Shown here in pieces: positions 9,830-24,574 of a stretch of 64,000 nt of DNA. A program made the translations under genes and the position numbers. The notes beneath the pieces are model-generated. The model searched no databases. It was not told the DNA's origin and saw only the letters and a list, made by a program, of their open reading frames with translations. Within the stretch, counting starts at the first letter, position 1; the number at the start of each line of letters is the position of its first letter. The stretch is from Lysobacter sp. MMG2. Its GTDB lineage: Bacteria; Pseudomonadota; Gammaproteobacteria; Xanthomonadales; Xanthomonadaceae. The DNA is taken from positions 186,001 to 250,000 of the forward strand of contig NZ_JAERQY020000004.1 of NCBI RefSeq assembly GCF_016735495.2, in the 5' to 3' direction.

Positions 9830-9919
9830 CTCCCTCCCCTGCTTGCAGGGAAGGGGTGACGCGTGCAGCGCGCAGGCTGCCCTCACCCCAACCCTCCCCC
9901 GCAGGCGGGAGAGGGGCTC
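9830..9919. repeat. Palindromic intergenic repeat (REP/BIME-like)
   Basis: The left half contains ctcccctgcttgcagggaag and the right half a complementary-type cccccgcaggcgggagaggg, so the unit is two palindromes in opposite orientation. Related units with nearly the same core lie at 16336 and 21512, and more distant relatives at 24601, 27090 and 42140. It resembles REP/BIME units mobilised by RAYT-type transposases in this family. Confidence 0.75.
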
Positions 9920-13849: not shown

Positions 13850-15076
13850 TCATCCCTTGATACACACCACCTGCCGCAGCGTATGCACGATCTCCACCAG
13901 ATCGCGCTGCGCCGCCATCACTGCGTCGATGTCCTTGTACGCGGCCGGCGACTCGTCGATCACGCCCGCGTCCTTGCGGCACTCCACGTGTGCGGTGGCC
14001 TCGCGGTGCTGCTTCAGCGTGATCTGCGCGCGCGCGGCGGTGCGGCTCATCACGCGGCCGGCGCCGTGGCTGCAGCTGTGGAAGCTGTCCGCGTTGCCCT
14101 TGCCGCGCACGATGAAGCTGCGTGCGCCCATGCTGCCCGGAATGATCCCCAGCTCGCCCTCGCGCGCGCTCACCGCGCCCTTGCGCGTGACCAGCACCGA
14201 CTCGCCGAAGTGGTCCTCGCGCTGCACGTAGTTGTGGTGGCAGTTCACCGCGTGCCTGTCGGTCTGGAACTTCGGCAGGCGGTGGCGCATCTCGTGCAGC
14301 ACGCGGCCCATCATCGCCTCGCGGTTGGCGCGGGCGTAGTCCTGCGCCCACGACACCGCCTCCACGTAGTCGTCGAACAGCGCCTCGCCCTCCAGGAAGA
14401 ACGCGAGGTCGCGATCGGGCACGTGGAAGCCCAGCACGCGCTTCTCCAACTGGCGACGCGCCAGCTCGATGAAGTACGTGCCGATGAGGTTGCCCGTGCC
14501 GCGCGAGCCGGAGTGCAGCATCACCCACACCGCGTCGGCCTCGTCCAGGCAGATCTCGATGAAGTGGTTGCCGCCGCCGAGCGTGCCGATCTGCTTGTCG
14601 ACCTTGTCCGGGCGGATCTTCGGGTGCTTCTCGCGGATCTTCGCCAGTCGCGCCATCAGCTCCGACCGCACCAGCGCCGTCTCGACACTGTCGGGAATGC
14701 GACGGTGCTCGCCGCCCGGGCCGTTGCCCACCGGGATGCTGCGCTCGATGGAGTTGCGCAGCAGCGACAGGTCGTCCGGCAGATCGTTCGCGCGCAACGT
14801 CGTGCGCACGGCGGCCATGCCGCAGCCGATGTCGACGCCGACCGCCGCCGGAATGATCGCGCCCTTGGTCGGCACGACCGAACCCACCGTCGCGCCGATG
14901 CCCAGGTGCACGTCCGGCATCACCGCGACCCACGGCCCCACGAAGGGCAGGGCGGTGATGTTGCGCAGCTGCTGCCGCGCCTGGTCCTCCACCGGCACGC
15001 CGTGCACCCAGCCCTTGATCGGCGTGGCGGCGCCCTGCGCGTGGAGAAACTCGAATGAAGTGTGTTGCGTGTTCAT
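13850..15076 (-). CDS. rtcB: RNA-splicing ligase RtcB
   Basis: GTP- and Mn-dependent RNA ligase that joins 2',3'-cyclic phosphate (or 3'-phosphate) and 5'-OH RNA ends. At 408 residues it has the length of E. coli RtcB. Motifs visible in order: PDVHLGIGATVGSVVP, GVDIGCGM (metal Cys), GGGNHFIE, NCHHNYVQRE (metal His), SAREGELGIIPGSMG and SCSHGAGRVMSR, which carries the His that is guanylylated. The start at 15076 gives the usual N-terminus. It lies 54 bases downstream of a slipin gene in the same direction, and both are downstream of two tRNA-like sequences. No rtcA or rtcR gene is visible in this window. Confidence 0.96.
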   Translation of the reverse strand: MNTQHTSFEFLHAQGAATPIKGWVHGVPVEDQARQQLRNITALPFVGPWVAVMPDVHLGIGATVGSVVPTKGAIIPAAVGVDIGCGMAAVRTTLRANDLPDDLSLLRNSIERSIPVGNGPGGEHRRIPDSVETALVRSELMARLAKIREKHPKIRPDKVDKQIGTLGGGNHFIEICLDEADAVWVMLHSGSRGTGNLIGTYFIELARRQLEKRVLGFHVPDRDLAFFLEGEALFDDYVEAVSWAQDYARANREAMMGRVLHEMRHRLPKFQTDRHAVNCHHNYVQREDHFGESVLVTRKGAVSAREGELGIIPGSMGARSFIVRGKGNADSFHSCSHGAGRVMSRTAARAQITLKQHREATAHVECRKDAGVIDESPAAYKDIDAVMAAQRDLVEIVHTLRQVVCIKG

Positions 15077-15130
15077 GGTTCCTTTCCCTGTGAAATCCGC
15101 GCGACCGGTTCCTTCCGGTCGCACGGGAGC

Positions 15131-16258
15131 TTACTGCTTCAGGCTCACCAGCTGCTTCATGACGCCGTCCAGGCCGCCGAACACGGTGAGCTTGTCGATC
15201 TTCTCGGTGACCTTCTCCAGAGCTTCCAGCTCCTTCAGGCGCATGAGCACCGGGCTCTCCTCGATCAGCTTGGCGGTGTTGAGCAGCGAACGCGTGGCGT
15301 TGGCCTCCTCGCGACGGCGGATCACGTTGGCCTGGGCCGACTTCTCCGCCTGCACGACGCCGTTGAGGATTTCCTTCATCTCGCCCGGCAGGATCACGTC
15401 CTTGACGCCCACGCCGAGCACCTCGACACCCAGCTCGTCCACGCGGCCGCGCACGTAGCCGAAGATGTCGGCGTCGAGCGAAGCCTTGTCGCCGAGCAGC
15501 TCGTCCAGCGTCTTGGCGGAGACCGCCTTGCGCAGGCCGAACTGGAGCTCGCGGTACACGTAGTCGGCGTACTTGGCCACGCGCGTGATCGCGGCGACCG
15601 GATCGACGATGCGCACGCTCGCGGCCAGGTTCACGCGCAGGCTGACCTTGTCGCGCGTGAGCAGCTCCTGGCCCGAGACCTCGAGCGACTGCACGCGCAG
15701 GTCGACCGCCTGCACCACGACGTTCTTCCGGAAACTCCAGAAGGCGTACTGGCCCGCGCCAACGACGCGCACCAGCTTGCCGTCGACGAACACCAGGCCC
15801 GCGAACTCGGCCGGCACCGCCAGCACGACGGACACCTTCTCGAGCACGCCGAGCTGGCGCAGTCGCGAAGCGACGTCGGCCGGAACATCCGGCTCGGCCG
15901 CGAGTGCGAGCGTGCGCACCTCCACCGCGATCGGACCCTTCCAGTACAGGCGACGCGTACCCGGCGCGAGGATCTCCTCCAGGCGACCGTTCTTCATCAC
16001 CAGGCCGACCTCTTCCACGCCGATGTCGGCGAGCAGGAAGGTCTCGCCCAGGCGCGGGCCGAGCGCGTCGATCAGCGCGTTCTCGTCGTTGCCGAGGTAT
16101 TCGGCACGCAGCGCGATGTTGTGCGCCTTGACCTCGACGCGATCGAACGGGTCGAACCACTTGTACACGCCCGGCGCGATGACGCCTTCGAATTGACGGT
16201 TGCGATACACCAGGCCGCGCTCGCCGTCGCCGATCACGACCCTCTTGGTCCAGAACAT
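15131..16258 (-). CDS. Slipin family protein (SPFH/band 7)
   Basis: A 375-residue SPFH-domain protein. The N-terminus MFWTKRVVIGDGERGLVYRN is not a typical membrane anchor. The SPFH core spans about residues 170-310 (VDLRVQSLEVSGQELLTRDKVSLRVN, AKYADYVYRELQFGLRKAV, LDADIFGYVRGRVDELGVEV), followed by the conserved ILPGEMKEILN and an Ala/Glu-rich helix ending LKELEALEKV. Slipins scaffold membrane complexes and recur next to rtcB in bacterial RNA-repair loci (known from comparative studies). A good ribosome binding site (aaggaga) precedes the ATG. The pairing suggests a membrane-linked RNA repair unit. Confidence 0.93.
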   Translation of the reverse strand: MFWTKRVVIGDGERGLVYRNRQFEGVIAPGVYKWFDPFDRVEVKAHNIALRAEYLGNDENALIDALGPRLGETFLLADIGVEEVGLVMKNGRLEEILAPGTRRLYWKGPIAVEVRTLALAAEPDVPADVASRLRQLGVLEKVSVVLAVPAEFAGLVFVDGKLVRVVGAGQYAFWSFRKNVVVQAVDLRVQSLEVSGQELLTRDKVSLRVNLAASVRIVDPVAAITRVAKYADYVYRELQFGLRKAVSAKTLDELLGDKASLDADIFGYVRGRVDELGVEVLGVGVKDVILPGEMKEILNGVVQAEKSAQANVIRRREEANATRSLLNTAKLIEESPVLMRLKELEALEKVTEKIDKLTVFGGLDGVMKQLVSLKQ

Positions 16259-16335
16259 CGGAAGTTCTCCTTGGTTTGGCTCTGATGGTCCGATCCGCTT
16301 GGTGCGCGAGGGATCGGTCGTCGCGTTAATCAGAA

Positions 16336-16425
16336 CTCCCTCCCCTGCTTGCAGGGGAGGGTTGGGGAGGGGGAGTGAAGCCGCGTCGCGGCGAGCTCGG
16401 CGCTGATGCGCCTCGACCCCCTCCC
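16336..16425. repeat. Palindromic intergenic repeat (REP/BIME-like), copy 2
   Basis: It shares almost all of its 90 bases with the unit at 21512: the palindrome ctcccctgcttgcaggggag, then gttggggaggg, gaagccgc.tcgcggcgagc and a closing ccccctccc. It lies in the 5' leader of the slipin gene, so a transcript from the tRNA-like genes into slipin would contain this hairpin. Confidence 0.8.
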
Positions 16426-16702
16426 AAAGAAATAAAGTTGGAAACGCCCCCGACACCAGAACCGCGGAGCACATCGCGCTCGATGCACTGGCGACGAAGG
16501 CGACGTCCGTTCGCTGCGACGATGCAACCATCGCGGTGACGAAGCGCCGCCGACGCGCGCATGCCCGAGGGCGGCGGCCCGGCGATCCTGCCGCTGCGGT
16601 GTCCGCTGCGCGCCACGCACGAGGCGAAGCGCGAAGGAACACCGCAAGGGGCGTTTCCGTTGGAGGGACTTTCGTCCCGGTTTTCACGACGTGACAGGTC
16701 GT
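16426..16702. other. Leader region between the tRNA-like genes and slipin
   Basis: No credible ORF. On the minus strand, just after the tRNA-like genes, a GGGAC-GAAA-GTCCC hairpin with a GNRA tetraloop occupies 16664-16677. The rest is GC-rich and unassigned. No intrinsic terminator is seen here on the minus strand, so read-through into slipin-rtcB is possible. Confidence 0.4.
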
Positions 16703-16776
16703 TGTTTGGAGCGGGAATCGAACCCGCGACACTCAGGTTATTGGCCTGATGCTCTACCCGACTGAGCTATCCAGTG
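16703..16776 (-). tRNA. tRNA-like gene 1, degenerate acceptor, AAT at anticodon position
   Basis: On the minus strand a D arm (GCTC/GAGC), an anticodon arm with a 5-bp stem TCAGG/CCTGA and a 7-base loop, a 5-base variable loop and a T arm GCGGG-TTCGATT-CCCGC are all present in tRNA spacing. The loop reads CCAATAA, so position 33 is C instead of the near-universal U and the anticodon would be AAT. Only four acceptor pairs (TGGA/TCCA) form; the outer three positions mismatch. No CCA is encoded. It begins right at the CCA end of tRNA-like gene 2. It is unlikely to be a normal translation tRNA. Confidence 0.7.
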
Positions 16777-16846
16777 GTGGACGAGCCGGAATCGAACCGG
16801 CGACCAACGGCATGTGCCATTGCTCTTACCTCTGAGCTACCGTCCG
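16775..16846 (-). tRNA. tRNA-like gene 2, 4-nt anticodon loop, encoded CCA
   Basis: On the minus strand a 6-bp acceptor stem (GGACGG/TCGTCC with one G-T pair), A73 and an encoded CCA enclose a D arm (GCTC/GAGC), a T arm GCCGG-TTCGATT-CCGGC and a 5-base variable loop. The anticodon arm is abnormal: ATGGC and GCCGT pair around only four bases (ACAT), where seven are needed for decoding; the stem can extend to seven pairs. The RNA could fold as a tRNA and be seen by tRNA-processing enzymes but cannot read a codon in the usual way. It directly precedes tRNA-like gene 1 on the same strand, upstream of slipin-rtcB. Confidence 0.72.
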
Positions 16847-17177
16847 CTCACGACGCACTGCATCGCATCCCCGGCATGCGCCACGACAGAGCCGCGCGCA
16901 CCGGGCAGGCACGGCTTCCGCCGCGAACCTGCGCCGCTGTGGATGTGGTGCGTGATGCGCCGTGCATTGGCGTCGCGATCCGGCGCGAACGCCGGTCGTG
17001 ACGCCAATCCCTTGTGCGAATGCAGCGTGCCGCCGCCCGCGCCGAAGCATCCAGGCGCAGCGCTCGAAGCGCTCGGTGACGTTCCCTCCATCGGAACCAG
17101 CATTGCTCCGGATGCTTCGGGATTGCGCGATGCACTCGCGTTGTTCGTATGCGTTTCCTTTGCGAACGCCGGAAACA
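16847..17177. other. Region upstream of the tRNA-like genes, with a large hairpin
   Basis: No ORF here looks like a protein. The main feature is an imperfect long hairpin at 16966-17008: outer arms ATTGGCGTC/GACGCCAAT and inner arms CCGGCG/CGCCGG around TTCG. It might be part of a structured RNA, a promoter-proximal element or a repeat. The promoter for the tRNA-like genes should lie here, but no convincing -35/-10 pair was found. Confidence 0.4.
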
Positions 17178-17217
17178 AAACGCCCCCGGGTGGTGAACCC
17201 GAGGGCGTTCGCGTTGC
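17178..17217 (-). terminator. Rho-independent terminator after the 37-residue ORF
   Basis: On the minus strand the arms ACGCCCTCGGG and CCCGGGGGCGT flank a 7-base loop and are followed by TTTGTTT. It lies about 45 bases after the small ORF stop, supporting that ORF as a short separate transcript. Confidence 0.8.
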
Positions 17218-17257
17218 CTCGGGAAGTCGGGGTGACCGACCTCCCGCGTGCAGGAGG

Positions 17258-17371
17258 TCAGCCGATATCGATGGATTCGTCGCGCAGTCGCTTCGTCGGC
17301 GCGAACGCGCACAGCCCGCAGCTCGCTGGCTGCAGTGCGTGGTGCTTGGCGTTGTCGGCGATGAAGTTCAT
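17258..17371 (-). CDS. Small hypothetical protein, 37 residues
   Basis: A short ORF starting MNFIADNAKHHALQPASCGL and ending RLRDESIDIG. It has two cysteines spaced CGLC and a basic middle, with no signal peptide or membrane segment. It is bracketed by terminators on the same strand: one ends the esterase transcript upstream, and one follows its own stop. That bracketing is the main reason to believe it is expressed. The ribosome binding site is weak. I do not recognise the family; it could be a small regulatory protein or a fortuitous ORF within a noncoding RNA. Confidence 0.45.
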   Translation of the reverse strand: MNFIADNAKHHALQPASCGLCAFAPTKRLRDESIDIG

Positions 17372-17440
17372 GGGAAGGTGCGGACCGAATGAAGTTGTGT
17401 GGAACGAAGGGCGCGCACGTTACGCGCTGCAAAAAACGAA

Positions 17441-17476
17441 AGCAAGACCGTTCGTCGGGAAACGAACGGTCGTCGC
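17441..17476 (-). terminator. Rho-independent terminator of the esterase gene
   Basis: On the minus strand GACCGTTCGT and ACGAACGGTC pair around a 6-base loop, followed by a T-rich tail ending in six Ts. It starts about 12 bases after the esterase stop. Confidence 0.88.
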
Positions 17477-17487
17477 GCATCGCGATG

Positions 17488-18168
17488 TCATTGCAGCAGC
17501 GGTGCCAGTTGCGTCCACACGTGATCGCGCAACTTCGGTTGCGCGTTCGCGACCGGATGCAGGTTGTCGTCCTGGAACGCGTTGCGGTCCAGCGCGATGG
17601 GTTCCAGCAGGAACGGCACGAACGCGATGCCGTGCTGTTTCGCCAGCGCGGCGAAGTTGTCGCTGAAACCCTGCGTGTACTCGCGGCCCAGGTTGGGCGG
17701 CATGCGCATGCCGATCAACAGCACCTTCGCACCCGCCGCCTTCGATGCACGGATCATCCGGTCCAGGTTCGCGCGCGATTGCGCCAGCGGCAGTCCGCGC
17801 AGGCCGTCGTTCGCGCCCAGTTCGATCACCACCACCGCGGGCTTGTTGCGCTTGATCTCGCCGTCGATGCGCGATGCGCCACCGGCGGTGGTCTCGCCGC
17901 TGATGCTCGCGTTCACCACGCGCCAACCCGGCTTCGTCGTGGCGACGCGGTCGGCCGTGAGCGACACCCAACCCTGCGAGGCCGCAAGCCCGTAGCCGGC
18001 CGAGAGCGAATCGCCCATCACCAGCACGGTGCGCGCGGGCTTCGCCGCCGGGGCCGCCTTCGCGGCGGTCTGTGCGGCGGCCGGCAGCGCGAGCGCCAGC
18101 ATCAGCCACGCGGCCGCGACCCAGCCGATGGCACATTGCAGGGGGCCTCGCGCGGCCGCATAACCCAT
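17488..18168 (-). CDS. tesA: SGNH hydrolase, TesA-like arylesterase
   Basis: A 226-residue periplasmic lipolytic enzyme. A signal peptide (AIGWVAAAWLMLALALPAAAQ) precedes the SGNH blocks: GDSLSAGYG (nucleophile Ser), the SGETTAGG block, ELGANDGLRG (Asn block) and DDNLHPVANAQ (catalytic Asp/His). This matches TesA-type thioesterase I/arylesterases. The start at 18168 is chosen for signal-peptide length; the frame stays open to 18237, into the divergent promoter region. It is divergent from ybbA/ybbP homologues, the same arrangement as E. coli tesA-ybbA-ybbP. Confidence 0.92.
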   Translation of the reverse strand: MGYAAARGPLQCAIGWVAAAWLMLALALPAAAQTAAKAAPAAKPARTVLVMGDSLSAGYGLAASQGWVSLTADRVATTKPGWRVVNASISGETTAGGASRIDGEIKRNKPAVVVIELGANDGLRGLPLAQSRANLDRMIRASKAAGAKVLLIGMRMPPNLGREYTQGFSDNFAALAKQHGIAFVPFLLEPIALDRNAFQDDNLHPVANAQPKLRDHVWTQLAPLLQ

Positions 18169-18289
18169 GTAAGACGGGCGCGAGGCGCGAAGCGACGTGA
18201 AGGTCCGGCTTCCCCGGTACGGGTTCTTAAAGATCATTTAATCCTCGCTCCCGACTATGACGATGAACGACAAGAGCATAAGGACGAAC

Positions 18290-18991
18290 ATGGCCGATTC
18301 CATCGCCCCGCGCACGCAGGCCCAAGCCGCCCTTCAGGTGGCGGGCCTGGGCAAGCGCGTGATGCTGCCTTCGGGCGAGCTGACCATCCTCGATGGGGTG
18401 GGCTTCGACATCGCGCCCGGCGACACGGTGGCGATCGTGGGCGCGTCCGGTTCGGGCAAGAGCACGTTGCTGTCGCTGCTTGCCGGGCTCGATACGCCCA
18501 GCAGCGGGCGCGTCGTGCTGGACGGCGAAACCCTGTCCACGCTCGACGAGGACGGCCGTGCGCGCGTGCGCGGCGAGAAGGTCGGCTTCGTGTTCCAGAA
18601 CTTCCAGCTGCTGCCCTCGCTGACCGCACTGGAAAACGTGATGCTTCCGCTGGAACTGCGCGGCGATCGCGAGGTGGATGCGCCTGCGCGCGCGATCCTG
18701 GAACAGGTGGGCCTGCGCGAGCGCCTGGGCCATTACCCGCGCCAGCTGTCGGGCGGCGAGCAGCAGCGCGTCGCCCTTGCGCGCGCGTTCGTCACGCGTC
18801 CTTCGCTGTTGTTCGCCGATGAACCCACCGGCAACCTCGACACGCACACCGGTCAGGCGATCATCGAACTGCTGTTCGAACTGAACGCGCACGCCGGCAC
18901 CACGCTGGTGCTGGTCACGCACGACGAGCACCTGGCCTCGCGCTGCAGCCGCCTGCTGCGGCTGGACAGCGGCCACCTGGTGGCGTCATGA
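18290..18991 (+). CDS. ybbA: ABC transporter ATP-binding protein, YbbA-like
   Basis: A 233-residue LolD/MacB-type ATPase. Walker A is GASGSGKST, the signature is [14 protein letters not shown], Walker B is [12 protein letters not shown] and the H-loop VTHDEHLA. The Q-loop region reads [17 protein letters not shown]. The start at 18290 is chosen because aaggacg precedes it; an in-frame ATG at 18257 is possible. Its stop overlaps the start of the permease gene (ATGA). In E. coli the homologous pair works beside TesA; the transported substrate is unknown. Confidence 0.93.
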
Positions 18992-21495
18992 GGCGGCCGG
19001 GAACCGGCGCGTTCGCGCTCGCCTGGCGCCAGTTGCGCCGCGACCTGGCGGCCGGCGACGTACGCATCCTGATCGCGGCGCTGGTGCTGGCGGTGCTCGC
19101 GGTGACGGCCGTGGGCTTCGTCACCGATCGTGCCGAGCGCGCGCTGGCGATCGAGGCCAACCGTCTGCTCGGCGGCGATGCGGTGGTGCGTGGCGATTCG
19201 CCCATCACCGGCGCGGTGCTCGAAGCGGCGAGTGCGCAGGCGTTGCAGCGCACGCAGACCATCGAATTGCAGACGATGATCCGCGTCGGCGAGCGCCTGC
19301 AACTGGGCGATCTGCGCGCGCTCGGCGAGGGCTTCCCGTTGCGCGGCGCGTTCCGGATCTCCGGCCCCGACGGTGTGGAGCGCGATGCGCCCGGCGTGCC
19401 CGCGCGCGGCACGGTCTGGATGAGCCGCGCCGGCGCCGACACGCTCGGTGCGAAGCTCGGCGACGAGATCGCGCTGGGCGACGCGCGCCTGCGACTGGCC
19501 GCACTGGTGGTGCAGGAGCCCGATGCCGCGCTGGATTACTTCAACGTCGCGCCCAAGGTTTTCCTCAATCTCGCTGACGTGCCGTCCACCGGACTGGTGC
19601 AGGAAGGCAGCCGCATCCGCTATCGCCTCGTCGTCGCGGGCCCGGCGGCGGCGGTGGAGACGTTCGTGAATACCGCGCGGGCGGAACTCGCGCGCGGGCA
19701 GCGGCTGGAGACGATCTCCGACGCGCGCCCGGAAATCCGTTCCGCGCTCGATCGCGCCGGCCGTTTCCTCGGCCTGGCCGCGCTGGTGTCGGTGGTGCTG
19801 GCCGCGGTCGCCGTGGCGATGGCGGCGCGTCGCCACAGCGAACGGCACCTGTCCGGCACCGCAGTGATGCGCTGCCTGGGCGCCAGTCAGCGCACGCTGG
19901 TCGTGATCCAGGTGGGCGAGCTGCTGATGCTGGGCGTGATCGCCAGCACCGTCGGCGTGCTGTTTGCGTTCGCGCTGCAGTGGGCGATCGGCGGATGGCT
20001 GGCGCAGGCGCTGAAGCTGTCGATCCCGCCCGCGGGCTGGCTGCCGGCGTTGCAAGGCTACGGCGTCGGGCTGGTGGTGCTGATGGCCTTCGGTGCGCCG
20101 CCGGTGCTGGCGCTGCGGCGCGTGCCCGCGCTGCGCGTGCTGCGTCGCGACCTGGATCCCACCGAGCCGAGCGCATGGCTGGTGGCCGTCGCGGGCTTCG
20201 TCGGTCTGGCGGCGCTGCTGTGGTGGAAGGCCGGTTCGGCGGCGCTGGGCATTTCGATGCTGCTGGGCATCATCGCCACGCTGGCGGTGCTCGCGCTGCT
20301 GGCCTGGGGAATGATCGTGCTGGTGCGGCGCGTGCGCTCGCGCCTGCGCGGCAGCCTGCGTTACGGACTGGCGAACGTGAGCCGTCGCGCCGGCGCGAGC
20401 ATCGCGCAGGTGTCCGCGCTAGGACTGGGCTTGATGGCGTTGCTGCTGCTGACCTTCGTGCGCACCGATTTGCTGGACCGCTGGCAGCTCGCGCTGGCCG
20501 CGGACGCGCCCAACCGCTTCATCGTCAACGTGCAGGACGACCAGGTCGACGCGGTGCGTGCGTTCATCGCCGAACAGGGCGTGGCCGCGCCGACGCTGTA
20601 CCCGATGATCCGCGGACGGCTCGTCGAGCACGACGGCAAGCCCGTCACCGGCAAGGATTACGTCGAACAGGGCGAGCGCGCGCAACGCCTGGCCGAACGC
20701 GAGTTCAACCTCTCGGTGGCCGATCACCTGCGCGACGACAACCGCGTCACCGAAGGAACCTTCTGGACCGGCAAGCCCGCCAAGCCCGAGGCGTCGGTCG
20801 AGGAGGAATTCGCCAAGCGCCTGGGCTGGAAGATCGGCGACCGCATCGCCTTCGACATCGCCGGCCAGCGTTTCGAGGCCACCATCACCAGCCTGCGCAG
20901 CGTGGACTGGGAGAGCTTCCGTCCGAACTTCTTCGTGATCGCATCGCCCGGTTCGCTCGACGGTTTCCCGGCCAGCCACATCACGGCAGTGAGCGTGCCG
21001 CCGCAGCGCACGCGCTTCACCGCCGATCTGGTGGAGCGCTTCCCGAACCTGTCGGTGGTCGACATCGACGCGGTGCTCAAGCAGGTGCGCAGCACGGCGG
21101 ACCAGGTGTCGACGGTGGTCGAAGTGGTCTTCTACTTCTCGCTGGTCGCCGGCCTGCTGGTGCTGATGGCCGCGGTGAGCGCGAGCCAGGACGAGCGCCT
21201 GCTGGAAGGTGGCGTCATGCGCGCCATCGGCGGCAGCCGACGGCAGCTGCGACTGGCGCAGGCGTCGGAGTTCGCGGCCATTGGGCTGCTGGCGGGGCTG
21301 ACGGCGGCGATTGCGGCGTCGGTGCTCGCGGGCGTGGTCGCCACGCAGGTGTTCGACCTGCCGTGGGAAGCGGATTGGCGCATGGCCGCGGTCGGCGCGG
21401 CGCTGGGCGTGGTGGCGGCGTTGCTTGCAGGGTTGTTCGCGACGCGGCGCGTGCTGGATGCGCCGCCGTCGGTGACGCTGCGCGAGTTGCAGTGA
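18988..21495 (+). CDS. ybbP: FtsX-like ABC permease, YbbP family
   Basis: An 835-residue inner-membrane protein with two FtsX-like domains. One membrane helix lies near residue 20-45, then a large periplasmic domain (about 45-250), a block of FtsX helices (about 250-470), a second periplasmic domain (about 480-700) and a final helix block. This ten-helix layout is that of YbbP/type VII-like permeases that do mechanical work across the envelope rather than translocating a substrate. It overlaps ybbA by four bases. A repeat element follows 17 bases after the stop. Confidence 0.93.
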   Translation: MRRPGTGAFALAWRQLRRDLAAGDVRILIAALVLAVLAVTAVGFVTDRAERALAIEANRLLGGDAVVRGDSPITGAVLEAASAQALQRTQTIELQTMIRVGERLQLGDLRALGEGFPLRGAFRISGPDGVERDAPGVPARGTVWMSRAGADTLGAKLGDEIALGDARLRLAALVVQEPDAALDYFNVAPKVFLNLADVPSTGLVQEGSRIRYRLVVAGPAAAVETFVNTARAELARGQRLETISDARPEIRSALDRAGRFLGLAALVSVVLAAVAVAMAARRHSERHLSGTAVMRCLGASQRTLVVIQVGELLMLGVIASTVGVLFAFALQWAIGGWLAQALKLSIPPAGWLPALQGYGVGLVVLMAFGAPPVLALRRVPALRVLRRDLDPTEPSAWLVAVAGFVGLAALLWWKAGSAALGISMLLGIIATLAVLALLAWGMIVLVRRVRSRLRGSLRYGLANVSRRAGASIAQVSALGLGLMALLLLTFVRTDLLDRWQLALAADAPNRFIVNVQDDQVDAVRAFIAEQGVAAPTLYPMIRGRLVEHDGKPVTGKDYVEQGERAQRLAEREFNLSVADHLRDDNRVTEGTFWTGKPAKPEASVEEEFAKRLGWKIGDRIAFDIAGQRFEATITSLRSVDWESFRPNFFVIASPGSLDGFPASHITAVSVPPQRTRFTADLVERFPNLSVVDIDAVLKQVRSTADQVSTVVEVVFYFSLVAGLLVLMAAVSASQDERLLEGGVMRAIGGSRRQLRLAQASEFAAIGLLAGLTAAIAASVLAGVVATQVFDLPWEADWRMAAVGAALGVVAALLAGLFATRRVLDAPPSVTLRELQ

Positions 21496-21511: not shown

Positions 21512-21602
21512 CTCCCTCCCCTGCTTGCAGGGGAGGGTTGGGGAGGGGTAGCGAAGCCGCATCGCGGCGAGCTCGGCGCTGTCGCGCCTCACACCCCCTC
21601 TC
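21512..21602. repeat. Palindromic intergenic repeat (REP/BIME-like), copy 3
   Basis: It is nearly identical over its length to the unit at 16336, sharing ctcccctgcttgcaggggag, gttggggagg, cgcggcgagctcggcgctg and a cccctc end. It sits between the convergent ybbP and the small 85-residue gene. Confidence 0.82.
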
Positions 21603-23876: not shown

Positions 23877-24574
23877 GCCTGCTCGCGCCGGTGGACTTCA
23901 CGCCCGTCGCGGTCCTGTTCGACATGGACGGGCTGATGATCGAAAGCGAACGCGCGCTGCTGGAATGCTGGCGCGAGGCGGCGCTGGAACTGGAACTGGC
24001 GTTGGACGACGCGCTGTGGCTGTCGTTCGTCGGGCTGTCCGACCGCGCCTGCCACGATCTGCTGCGCCAGCGGCTGGGCGACGAGGACACGGTCCAGGCG
24101 CTGCTGCACGGCCTGCAGCGGCGCTACGACGCGCGCGTGGACGCGGGCTTGCCGCTGAAGACGGGCGTACTCGAACTGCTGGCGCTGCTGAAGGCGCGGG
24201 GCGTCCCGCGCGCGGTGGTCACGTCCACGCGCCGCCCGCGCGCGCTGCAGAAACTGGAATCGACCGGGCTGCTGCCGCATTTCGACGACGTCATCGCCGG
24301 CAACGAGGTCCAGCATTCCAAGCCCGCGCCGGACATCTACCTGTTGGCGGCGCAGCGTCTGGGCGTCGCGCCGTCGTATTGCATCGTGCTGGAGGATTCC
24401 GTGCCGGGCGTGCGCGCGGCGCTCGCGGCGGGGATGACGCCGATCCAGGTGCCGGACCTGGTGATCCCGGACGATGCGGTGCGCGCGCTGGGCCATCGCA
24501 TCGTCGATTCGCTGGTGCAGGCGCGGGCGTTGATCGAGCCGGCGCTGAAGGCCTCTCTCCCATCGGGAGCTTGA
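23873..24574 (+). CDS. HAD-superfamily phosphatase, beta-phosphoglucomutase-like
   Basis: A 233-residue HAD hydrolase. Motif I is LFDMDGLMIESE with both aspartates, a helical cap covers about residues 25-90, motif II is VVTSTRRP (Thr/Ser), motif III Lys lies in EVQHSKPAPDIY, and motif IV is VLEDSVPGVRAA. The DMDG-[LV]-x-[IV] form with cap type C1 places it with YcjU/HxpB/YniC-type sugar-phosphate or pseudouridine-phosphate phosphatases. Coupling to a pseudouridine synthase makes a nucleotide or pseudouridine-phosphate substrate conceivable but unproven. The ATG overlaps the rsuA-like stop. Confidence 0.9.
   Translation: MSLLAPVDFTPVAVLFDMDGLMIESERALLECWREAALELELALDDALWLSFVGLSDRACHDLLRQRLGDEDTVQALLHGLQRRYDARVDAGLPLKTGVLELLALLKARGVPRAVVTSTRRPRALQKLESTGLLPHFDDVIAGNEVQHSKPAPDIYLLAAQRLGVAPSYCIVLEDSVPGVRAALAAGMTPIQVPDLVIPDDAVRALGHRIVDSLVQARALIEPALKASLPSGA

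Follow-up and report, generated by a model that had tools for sequence, protein, structure and literature searches.

Burroughs and Aravind are said to have linked SPFH proteins, RtcB and tRNA-like RNA in 2016 (NAR 44:8525). A tie between tRNA-like RNA, SPFH and RtcB is already known in this sense, and the subject of this article is a variant of it: two tRNA-like elements, A and B, that lie upstream of a slipin gene and of rtcB in Lysobacter sp. MMG2. They were analysed within a stretch of 64,000 nucleotides (positions 186,001 to 250,000 of contig NZ_JAERQY020000004.1), referred to throughout as the window. Sequence comparison shows that both A and B are conserved parts of a long structured leader of slipin, and that this leader is inherited together with a single slipin subfamily. 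In most cases A is a predicted tRNA mimic with a tetraloop, and B is a predicted tRNA mimic with an anticodon loop of normal size. Both give the impression of functional RNA components of a stress or RNA-repair system and not of broken tRNA genes, because they belong to a large conserved structured RNA ahead of slipin and their anticodons differ between species.

Several described systems resemble this locus. The SPFH/Band-7-associated tRNA-like non-coding RNA (ncRNA) of RtcB systems, of which a section of PMC13404743 gives a second-hand description, shares with it a tRNA-like RNA beside an SPFH gene and RtcB, both of which are present in the window. No prior report of tandem arrays, a large covarying leader, a free anticodon or a weaker tie to rtcB was found in searches of the open-access literature. 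The Salmonella rsr-yrlBA-rtcBA operon is likewise an RtcB locus containing an ncRNA with a tRNA-like domain; according to excerpts of Hughes et al. (2020; PMC7790460), its tRNA-like YrlA may competitively inhibit an anticodon nuclease. As far as that text goes, the operon differs in having Ro60, where the present locus has an SPFH protein, and in being controlled by RtcR; in addition, the YrlA model stays below its cut-off here. The Anabaena repressor TrcR acts on rtcB and on a cryptic tRNA operon; the slipin alr0740 is up 42-fold in a trcR deletion, and the tRNA operon is activated by translation-targeting antibiotics (extracts of PMC10272220). A joint change of this tRNA array, of rtcB and of alr0740, perhaps through erythromycin, is also described (extracts of PMC9938897). 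The likeness lies in a tRNA array, RtcB and a slipin that rise together on loss of the repressor. Unlike the arrangement studied here, the 26 Anabaena tRNA genes lie on a megaplasmid with rtcB and slipin elsewhere, and the two are likened by description, not by sequence. The same applies to the rtc locus of Pseudomonas aeruginosa, which also includes an SPFH gene, PaFlo8 (PMC13086221, in part); it differs in that RtcR is present, and the word tRNA is absent from the main text of that paper.

Element A (positions 16775..16846, minus strand) has a 6-bp acceptor stem, a D arm, an anticodon loop of 4 nt (ACAU), a T arm and an ACCA end encoded at 16778-16775. As this end reaches position 16775, A directly adjoins element B (16703..16774, minus strand), which consists of a four-pair acceptor (UGGA/UCCA), a near-invariant D arm, the 7-nt loop CCAAUAA with C33, and a T arm. 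The standard tRNA geometry, with a 7-bp acceptor and a 7-nt loop containing U33, is found in neither. In a cmscan search with the tRNA family RF00005 (gathering score 29), B matches over 16707-16773 with 50.3 bits (E 6.6e-9) and A over 16777-16846 with 45.2 bits (E 1.7e-7); these are the two lowest-scoring of 49 matches genome-wide. ARAGORN detects A only, labelled tRNA-??? with a 2-base anticodon. An Rfam scan of positions 15000-20000 brings no family except tRNA to its cut-off. The first-pass annotation had described two abutting tRNA-like RNAs with their D and T arms kept, of which one has a 4-nt anticodon loop and the other only four acceptor pairs and C33, and had placed them on the strand of slipin and rtcB. 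This description is borne out; both genes lie downstream on the minus strand. Its term ‘defective’ has to be given up. The features are common in the family and not lesions of this genome: among 40 aligned pairs, the A loop columns hold four letters in 23 and other lengths in 17 (alignment-dependent counts), and in 40/40 each of the B acceptor pairs tested, four in number, is formed.

Single-sequence folding gives z-scores against shuffles of -2.65 for A and -1.35 for B, which is not strikingly better than chance, and the support for the predicted structures is comparative. It comes from the same 40 hand-picked aligned pairs, assessed against 500 shuffles and slid controls. Across these pairs 95.1% of cells are paired, and 24 of the 38 base pairs have changed on both sides. 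Such double changes occupy 157 cells, compared with 42.5 in shuffles (none of the 500 reaches 157) and 19-40 in the slid controls. All six acceptor pairs of A show changes on both sides; so do all five pairs of the B anticodon stem, which is 99% paired. The acceptor and D arm of B hardly vary. The pair thus has compensatory changes; the first-pass annotation had proposed a search for covariation in the shortened arms.

The leader as a whole is ~700 nt long here (702 nt), from ~16960 to the slipin start, with a folded core at 16960-16440 according to RNAalifold on 40 leaders. Each predicted helix was compared with 200 shuffles; as the RNAalifold structure was derived from the very alignment used in this test, which is uncurated, the comparison leans in its favour. 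The 5' structured domain (16853..16960, minus strand, as are all leader features) has outer stems and a conserved hairpin region with the family consensus AGCGG...CCGGTGCGCGCGGC..TGCCGTGGCGTATGCC. Its helices contain 51, 90 and 34 double-change cells (shuffle means 12.9, 31.0 and 6.5, respectively). The inner hairpin is nearly invariant, with one double change, so that its pairing escapes a covariation test; the motif can be made out by eye at some distant gammaproteobacterial loci, those of Competibacter and Thiodiazotropha. Directly 3' of B stands a short hairpin (16686..16702) with 42 double-change cells against a shuffle mean of 10.0, followed by a tetraloop hairpin predicted by RNAalifold (16664..16678) whose covariation is no better than that of shuffles (2 versus 1.1). 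A long-range helix, GGAAACGCCCC / GGGGCGTTTCC, closes the 3' structured domain (16440..16658) and has 25 double-change cells versus 4.6 in shuffles; the inner helix of this domain has 140 versus 47.3. A further hairpin (16290..16317; 29 versus 9.1) precedes the ribosome-binding site of slipin. The predicted helices at alignment columns 18-20/644-646, 300-304/309-313 and 650-654/663-667 are unsupported by covariation, and those at columns 76-86/90-101 and 203-206/639-642 are too invariant to be judged by it.

The pair is inherited with slipin. In a BLAST search of the 145-nt pair against 149 family genomes, with at most five candidates scored per genome, it was counted as present in 44, namely 43 with E <1e-7 and one (G138) with a 125-nt match at 2.8e-6. 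Among the matches listed for the remaining genomes, E was >1e-6 and the length at most ~70 nt, as ordinary tRNAs would give. A slipin profile finds the gene in 48 of the 149 genomes. The pair occurs in 44 of these 48 and in none of the 101 slipin-negative ones (Fisher p 1.5e-33, a guide only, since the genomes share kinship). Conservation in relatives, by which the first-pass annotation had wished its proposal to be judged, is thus what was found. As to the other slipin-bearing genomes, G115 has a tRNA-like element ~410 nt upstream, in G119 the first base of slipin is contig base 190, and neither in G128 nor in G001 is there a tRNA-like element within the stretches fetched. A motif search placed B in 42 of the 43 pair loci with slipin in reach, on the same strand and starting 278-741 nt upstream of slipin; of the 42 placements, those at L043 and L044 were afterwards shifted to the T arm.

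The association extends beyond the family. A scan of named genomes with a slipin alignment, taking the best 80 of 259 relatives, yields a tRNA-like element upstream of slipin in 75 of the 77 loci that have at least 500 nt upstream. The full-element pattern identifies 72 of them, and ARAGORN or Rfam the other three (L115, L117, L124); ten of the 72 pattern matches needed 4-5 mismatches, and all ten are backed by ARAGORN or Rfam. At L095 and L107 an element was found by neither pattern nor ARAGORN/Rfam. Elements are seen upstream of slipin across the gammaproteobacterial class, mostly at 350-600 nt. Slipin is present at E 1e-60 in 21 of 369 class genomes, and 15 of the 19 class loci fetched have a same-strand upstream Rfam tRNA match; none lies within the stretch at L161, L168, L170 and L173, and L163 sits within an ordinary tRNA cluster. 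In the phylum, slipin is present in 23 of 398 genomes. Thirteen of 15 further loci have an upstream Rfam tRNA match (marginal, at 29.9 bits, in L183), and L184 and L187 have none; the thirteen include all seven loci fetched from another class (an eighth, G897, was left out, its contig starting there). Abutting or near-abutting pairs or triples recur, as at L160, L162, L164, L171, L172, L179, L189, L191 and L195. At L110, L111, L113, L114, L116, L118, L123, L124 and L125, a second, reduced unit can be seen by eye 3' of the full element; in these distant loci it consists of a small hairpin followed by a lone hairpin resembling a T arm. L170 and L173 (viewed upstream as L175 and L176) have rtcB upstream of slipin, and a tRNA-like element was not found in the stretches fetched.

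By the same comparisons, the constant partner of the tRNA-like elements is slipin, and the tie to rtcB is weaker. Slipin is an SPFH/Band_7 protein of 375 aa (15131..16258, minus strand; Pfam Band_7 E 3.5e-31), and the RNA ligase gene rtcB (408 aa; 13850..15076, minus strand; Pfam RtcB E 5e-124) is a frequent but optional neighbour. It lies directly downstream of slipin in 49 of the 80 named loci, follows after 633-1033 nt in nine, and is elsewhere or partial in four; it was not found in the seven stretches from the other class. The link to slipin-rtcB drawn in the first-pass annotation therefore stands for slipin and was too narrow as regards rtcB. RlaP follows slipin in Hahella, and RtcA follows rtcB in L172. 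RtcR (PF06956) has no match in the Lysobacter genome, with a positive E. coli control, so that the usual regulator is absent. Where slipin and rtcB are separated, the gap contains an open reading frame of 258-309 aa (MYKVIVERPR...) in five of six loci inspected, several of them in Lysobacterales (L068:5225-6040, L057:5188-5964, L089:5282-6163, L092:5218-6147, L052:5126-5935); the four tested have no Pfam match.

Another system considered is the eukaryotic vault, composed of major vault protein and vault RNA. In Foldseek the predicted slipin model (predicted local distance difference test score, pLDDT, 77, with a low-scoring C-terminus) finds chains of the major vault protein, with a best rank of 11, E 1.2e-11 and a template modelling (TM) score of 0.39 by query length. 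Stomatins match it better and are the best hits.

For the survey of anticodon arms, one element was parsed per locus at 72 loci, and six were omitted in which it equals or resembles A, leaving 66 arms. Loops of 7 nt occur in 55 of the 66, with fully paired stems in 54 of these 55. Position 33 is T in 33 loops, C in 16, G in 4 and A in 2 (a pyrimidine, Y33, in 49/55), and A37 is found in 46 of the 55. Among the same 55 loops there are 27 triplets and 21 stem sequences; triplets with A34 other than ACG occur in nine, and a stop anticodon also occurs. In these alignments the B triplet is almost free while the loop frame and the stem pairing persist.

Such differences are also seen between close relatives. 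In the Stenotrophomonas group, where 33 of 91 genomes had a match to the leader and the comparison covers 30 loci, the B loop is TCCTGAT in 16 and TCCGTAA in 10, two versions that differ at three positions, and a near variant in 4; the stem is invariant. Three of the seven loop columns have a diversity of 0.48-0.56, and at 12 of the 30 loci the nearest relative by the remaining stretch has another loop. Diversity is 0.23 in the B loop versus 0.095 at fourfold slipin sites. On this evidence exchange of loop alleles is clear, and selection for diversity is not proven. A claim of hypervariability beyond neutral expectation was rejected as not clean: the loop is more diverse than fourfold sites but close to the spacers, and the hypergeometric test behind it (p 0.004) takes columns that are linked to be independent. 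B is not a copy of a host anticodon arm either, the closest of the genome's own arms (Met) differing at 4 of 17 positions.

The reading preferred here, with some reserve, is that the tRNA mimic would be bound by slipin and, held on an assembly of this protein, would act as a bait for, or a sensor of, damage to anticodons. The leader RNA would be produced together with the slipin transcript, fold into tRNA-shaped domains and be held by the slipin scaffold. Ribonucleases that damage tRNAs, or the repair machinery, would then be presented with the anticodon loop of B, which can be spared, and not with that of a true tRNA; A has a short loop and would not be a usual ribonuclease target; and RtcB, where present, would reseal the cut loop. 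The first-pass annotation had proposed a role as decoys, sentinels or repair substrates for sensing anticodon nucleases, which likewise stays an inference. Co-inheritance with slipin, covariation, a loop frame that is kept as the triplet varies, and RtcB, RtcA or RlaP as neighbours at some loci are all consistent with the preferred reading, as are, among published systems, the rise of alr0740 in the Anabaena trcR deletion and the inhibition of an anticodon nuclease proposed for YrlA. A wider version is rather unlikely: that many Pseudomonadota have a large ncRNA, bound by slipin, in which between one and three tRNA-shaped domains display an anticodon that can be switched, and whose exchangeable baits would be kept diverse by selection against anticodon-cutting ribonucleases within a vault-like slipin assembly, RtcB and RlaP being optional repair add-ons.

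Several observations weigh against the bait or sensor. The loop diversity of 0.23 in Stenotrophomonas is close to that of the leader spacers (0.14-0.21) and below that of the D loop of B (0.30), so that relaxed constraint on the loop may be involved. Triplets belong to the host's own set in 41 of 52 cases versus 37.5 when positions are shuffled (p 0.04); the idea that anticodons are drawn from the natural set was dropped, as this is a slight excess only, relative to the set of this one genome. In Arenimonas composti (L095), a natural deletion ~400 nt upstream of slipin has removed most of A and B; by eye the 5' motif and the 3' helix are retained, and there is no RF00005 match. RtcB was not found in 18 of the 80 named loci, 13 of which have at least 2.4 kb downstream, and neither the slipin nor the RtcB protein has a PADLOC match. 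In the excerpts of Hughes et al. (PMC7790460), fragments of YrlA RNA were not detected, so that YrlA was not a substrate there. Lastly, the whole-leader RNAalifold structure pairs the B acceptor with a site near the slipin start (columns 203-206/639-642); the invariance of these columns favours neither this pairing nor a closed B acceptor.

That last pairing speaks for a sensor acting in cis, which is nearly as likely as a bait or sensor on a slipin assembly. Cleavage, modification, processing or repair of the tRNA-like domains would alter expression of slipin, and of rtcB with it, and the RNA would act on no message but the one that carries it. In favour of this, the elements found share the strand of slipin and lie upstream of it, helices continue almost to the start codon, a hairpin that covaries immediately precedes the ribosome-binding site, and the sequence there is near-invariant in Stenotrophomonas. 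The absence of RtcR also fits a control of this kind. A switch, however, would not need an RNA of several domains and as many as three tRNA mimics, and a freely varying anticodon suits a ligand-specific switch poorly.

A further reading is improbable, though with points in its favour: the tRNA-like folds may be processing marks, from which RNase P and 3'-end processing release a leader RNA or the 5' end of the mRNA, the anticodon arm having no role and drifting. CCA is found in the A-B junction columns of 35 of 40 sequences, most of the invariant columns fall in the D and T arms, and loop diversity is near that of the spacers. Drift alone, however, should lose the 7-nt loop, Y33, A37 and the fully paired, covarying stem, all of which persist.

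Genuine translation tRNAs with unusual anticodons are very unlikely, even if the B loops of many relatives look normal and ARAGORN assigns amino acids to them. Besides A and B the genome encodes 47 tRNAs, which together serve all 20 amino acids, invariably carry U33 and have A34 once only. The reading was rejected on this full host set and on the shape of the elements, including the four-pair B acceptor, and the shifts of identity between close species and the A34 and stop anticodons also speak against it; the view of the first-pass annotation that these are not translation tRNAs is well supported. No better is the case for a Y RNA of the YrlA type. The YrlA model (RF02553) does match across A and B (39 bits, E 3.6e-6), but this is far below its gathering score of 69; the neighbour is an SPFH gene, and the match comprises the T arm of A and the D arm of B, as two tRNA-like units would explain. 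Least probable of all are tRNA genes in decay, or pieces of tRNA that an integrating element left behind: low tRNA scores, the short B acceptor and the 4-nt A loop would suit them, but the pair is conserved beside slipin with compensatory changes and the same ‘defects’ recur in relatives, and co-occurrence and covariation exclude chance as well.

The substrates of bacterial RtcB and of SPFH proteins are poorly known, and this RNA is a conserved candidate partner for both. Candidate parts can be named: a fixed scaffold, a bait-like loop with different letters even among close relatives, and a co-inherited slipin. If the bait reading were true, the anticodons would be a natural record of the tRNAs under attack. 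Some caution is needed with annotations, as tRNA finders label many of these elements ordinary tRNAs. Elsewhere in the window, ARAGORN reports a tRNA-Ala (cgc) at 24379-24470 that overlaps a long open reading frame and is absent from the 49 RF00005 matches; it is likely a false call.

As for transcription signals, a simple scan yields no sigma-70 promoter. The first-pass annotation had seen no terminator between the pair and slipin. Strictly, there is one terminator-like hairpin (16361-16338), formed by a dispersed inverted repeat, CCCTCCCCTGCAAGCAGGGGAGGG, inside the leader (16338..16361, minus strand), and this is the only such site in the interval. Terminator-like sites number three in the stretch, however, versus 2.1 in shuffles, and this one is a repeat copy. 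The 24-bp repeat CCCTCCCCTGCAAGCAGGGGAGGG occurs at 9832-9855, 16338-16361 and 21514-21537, one copy having a mismatch.
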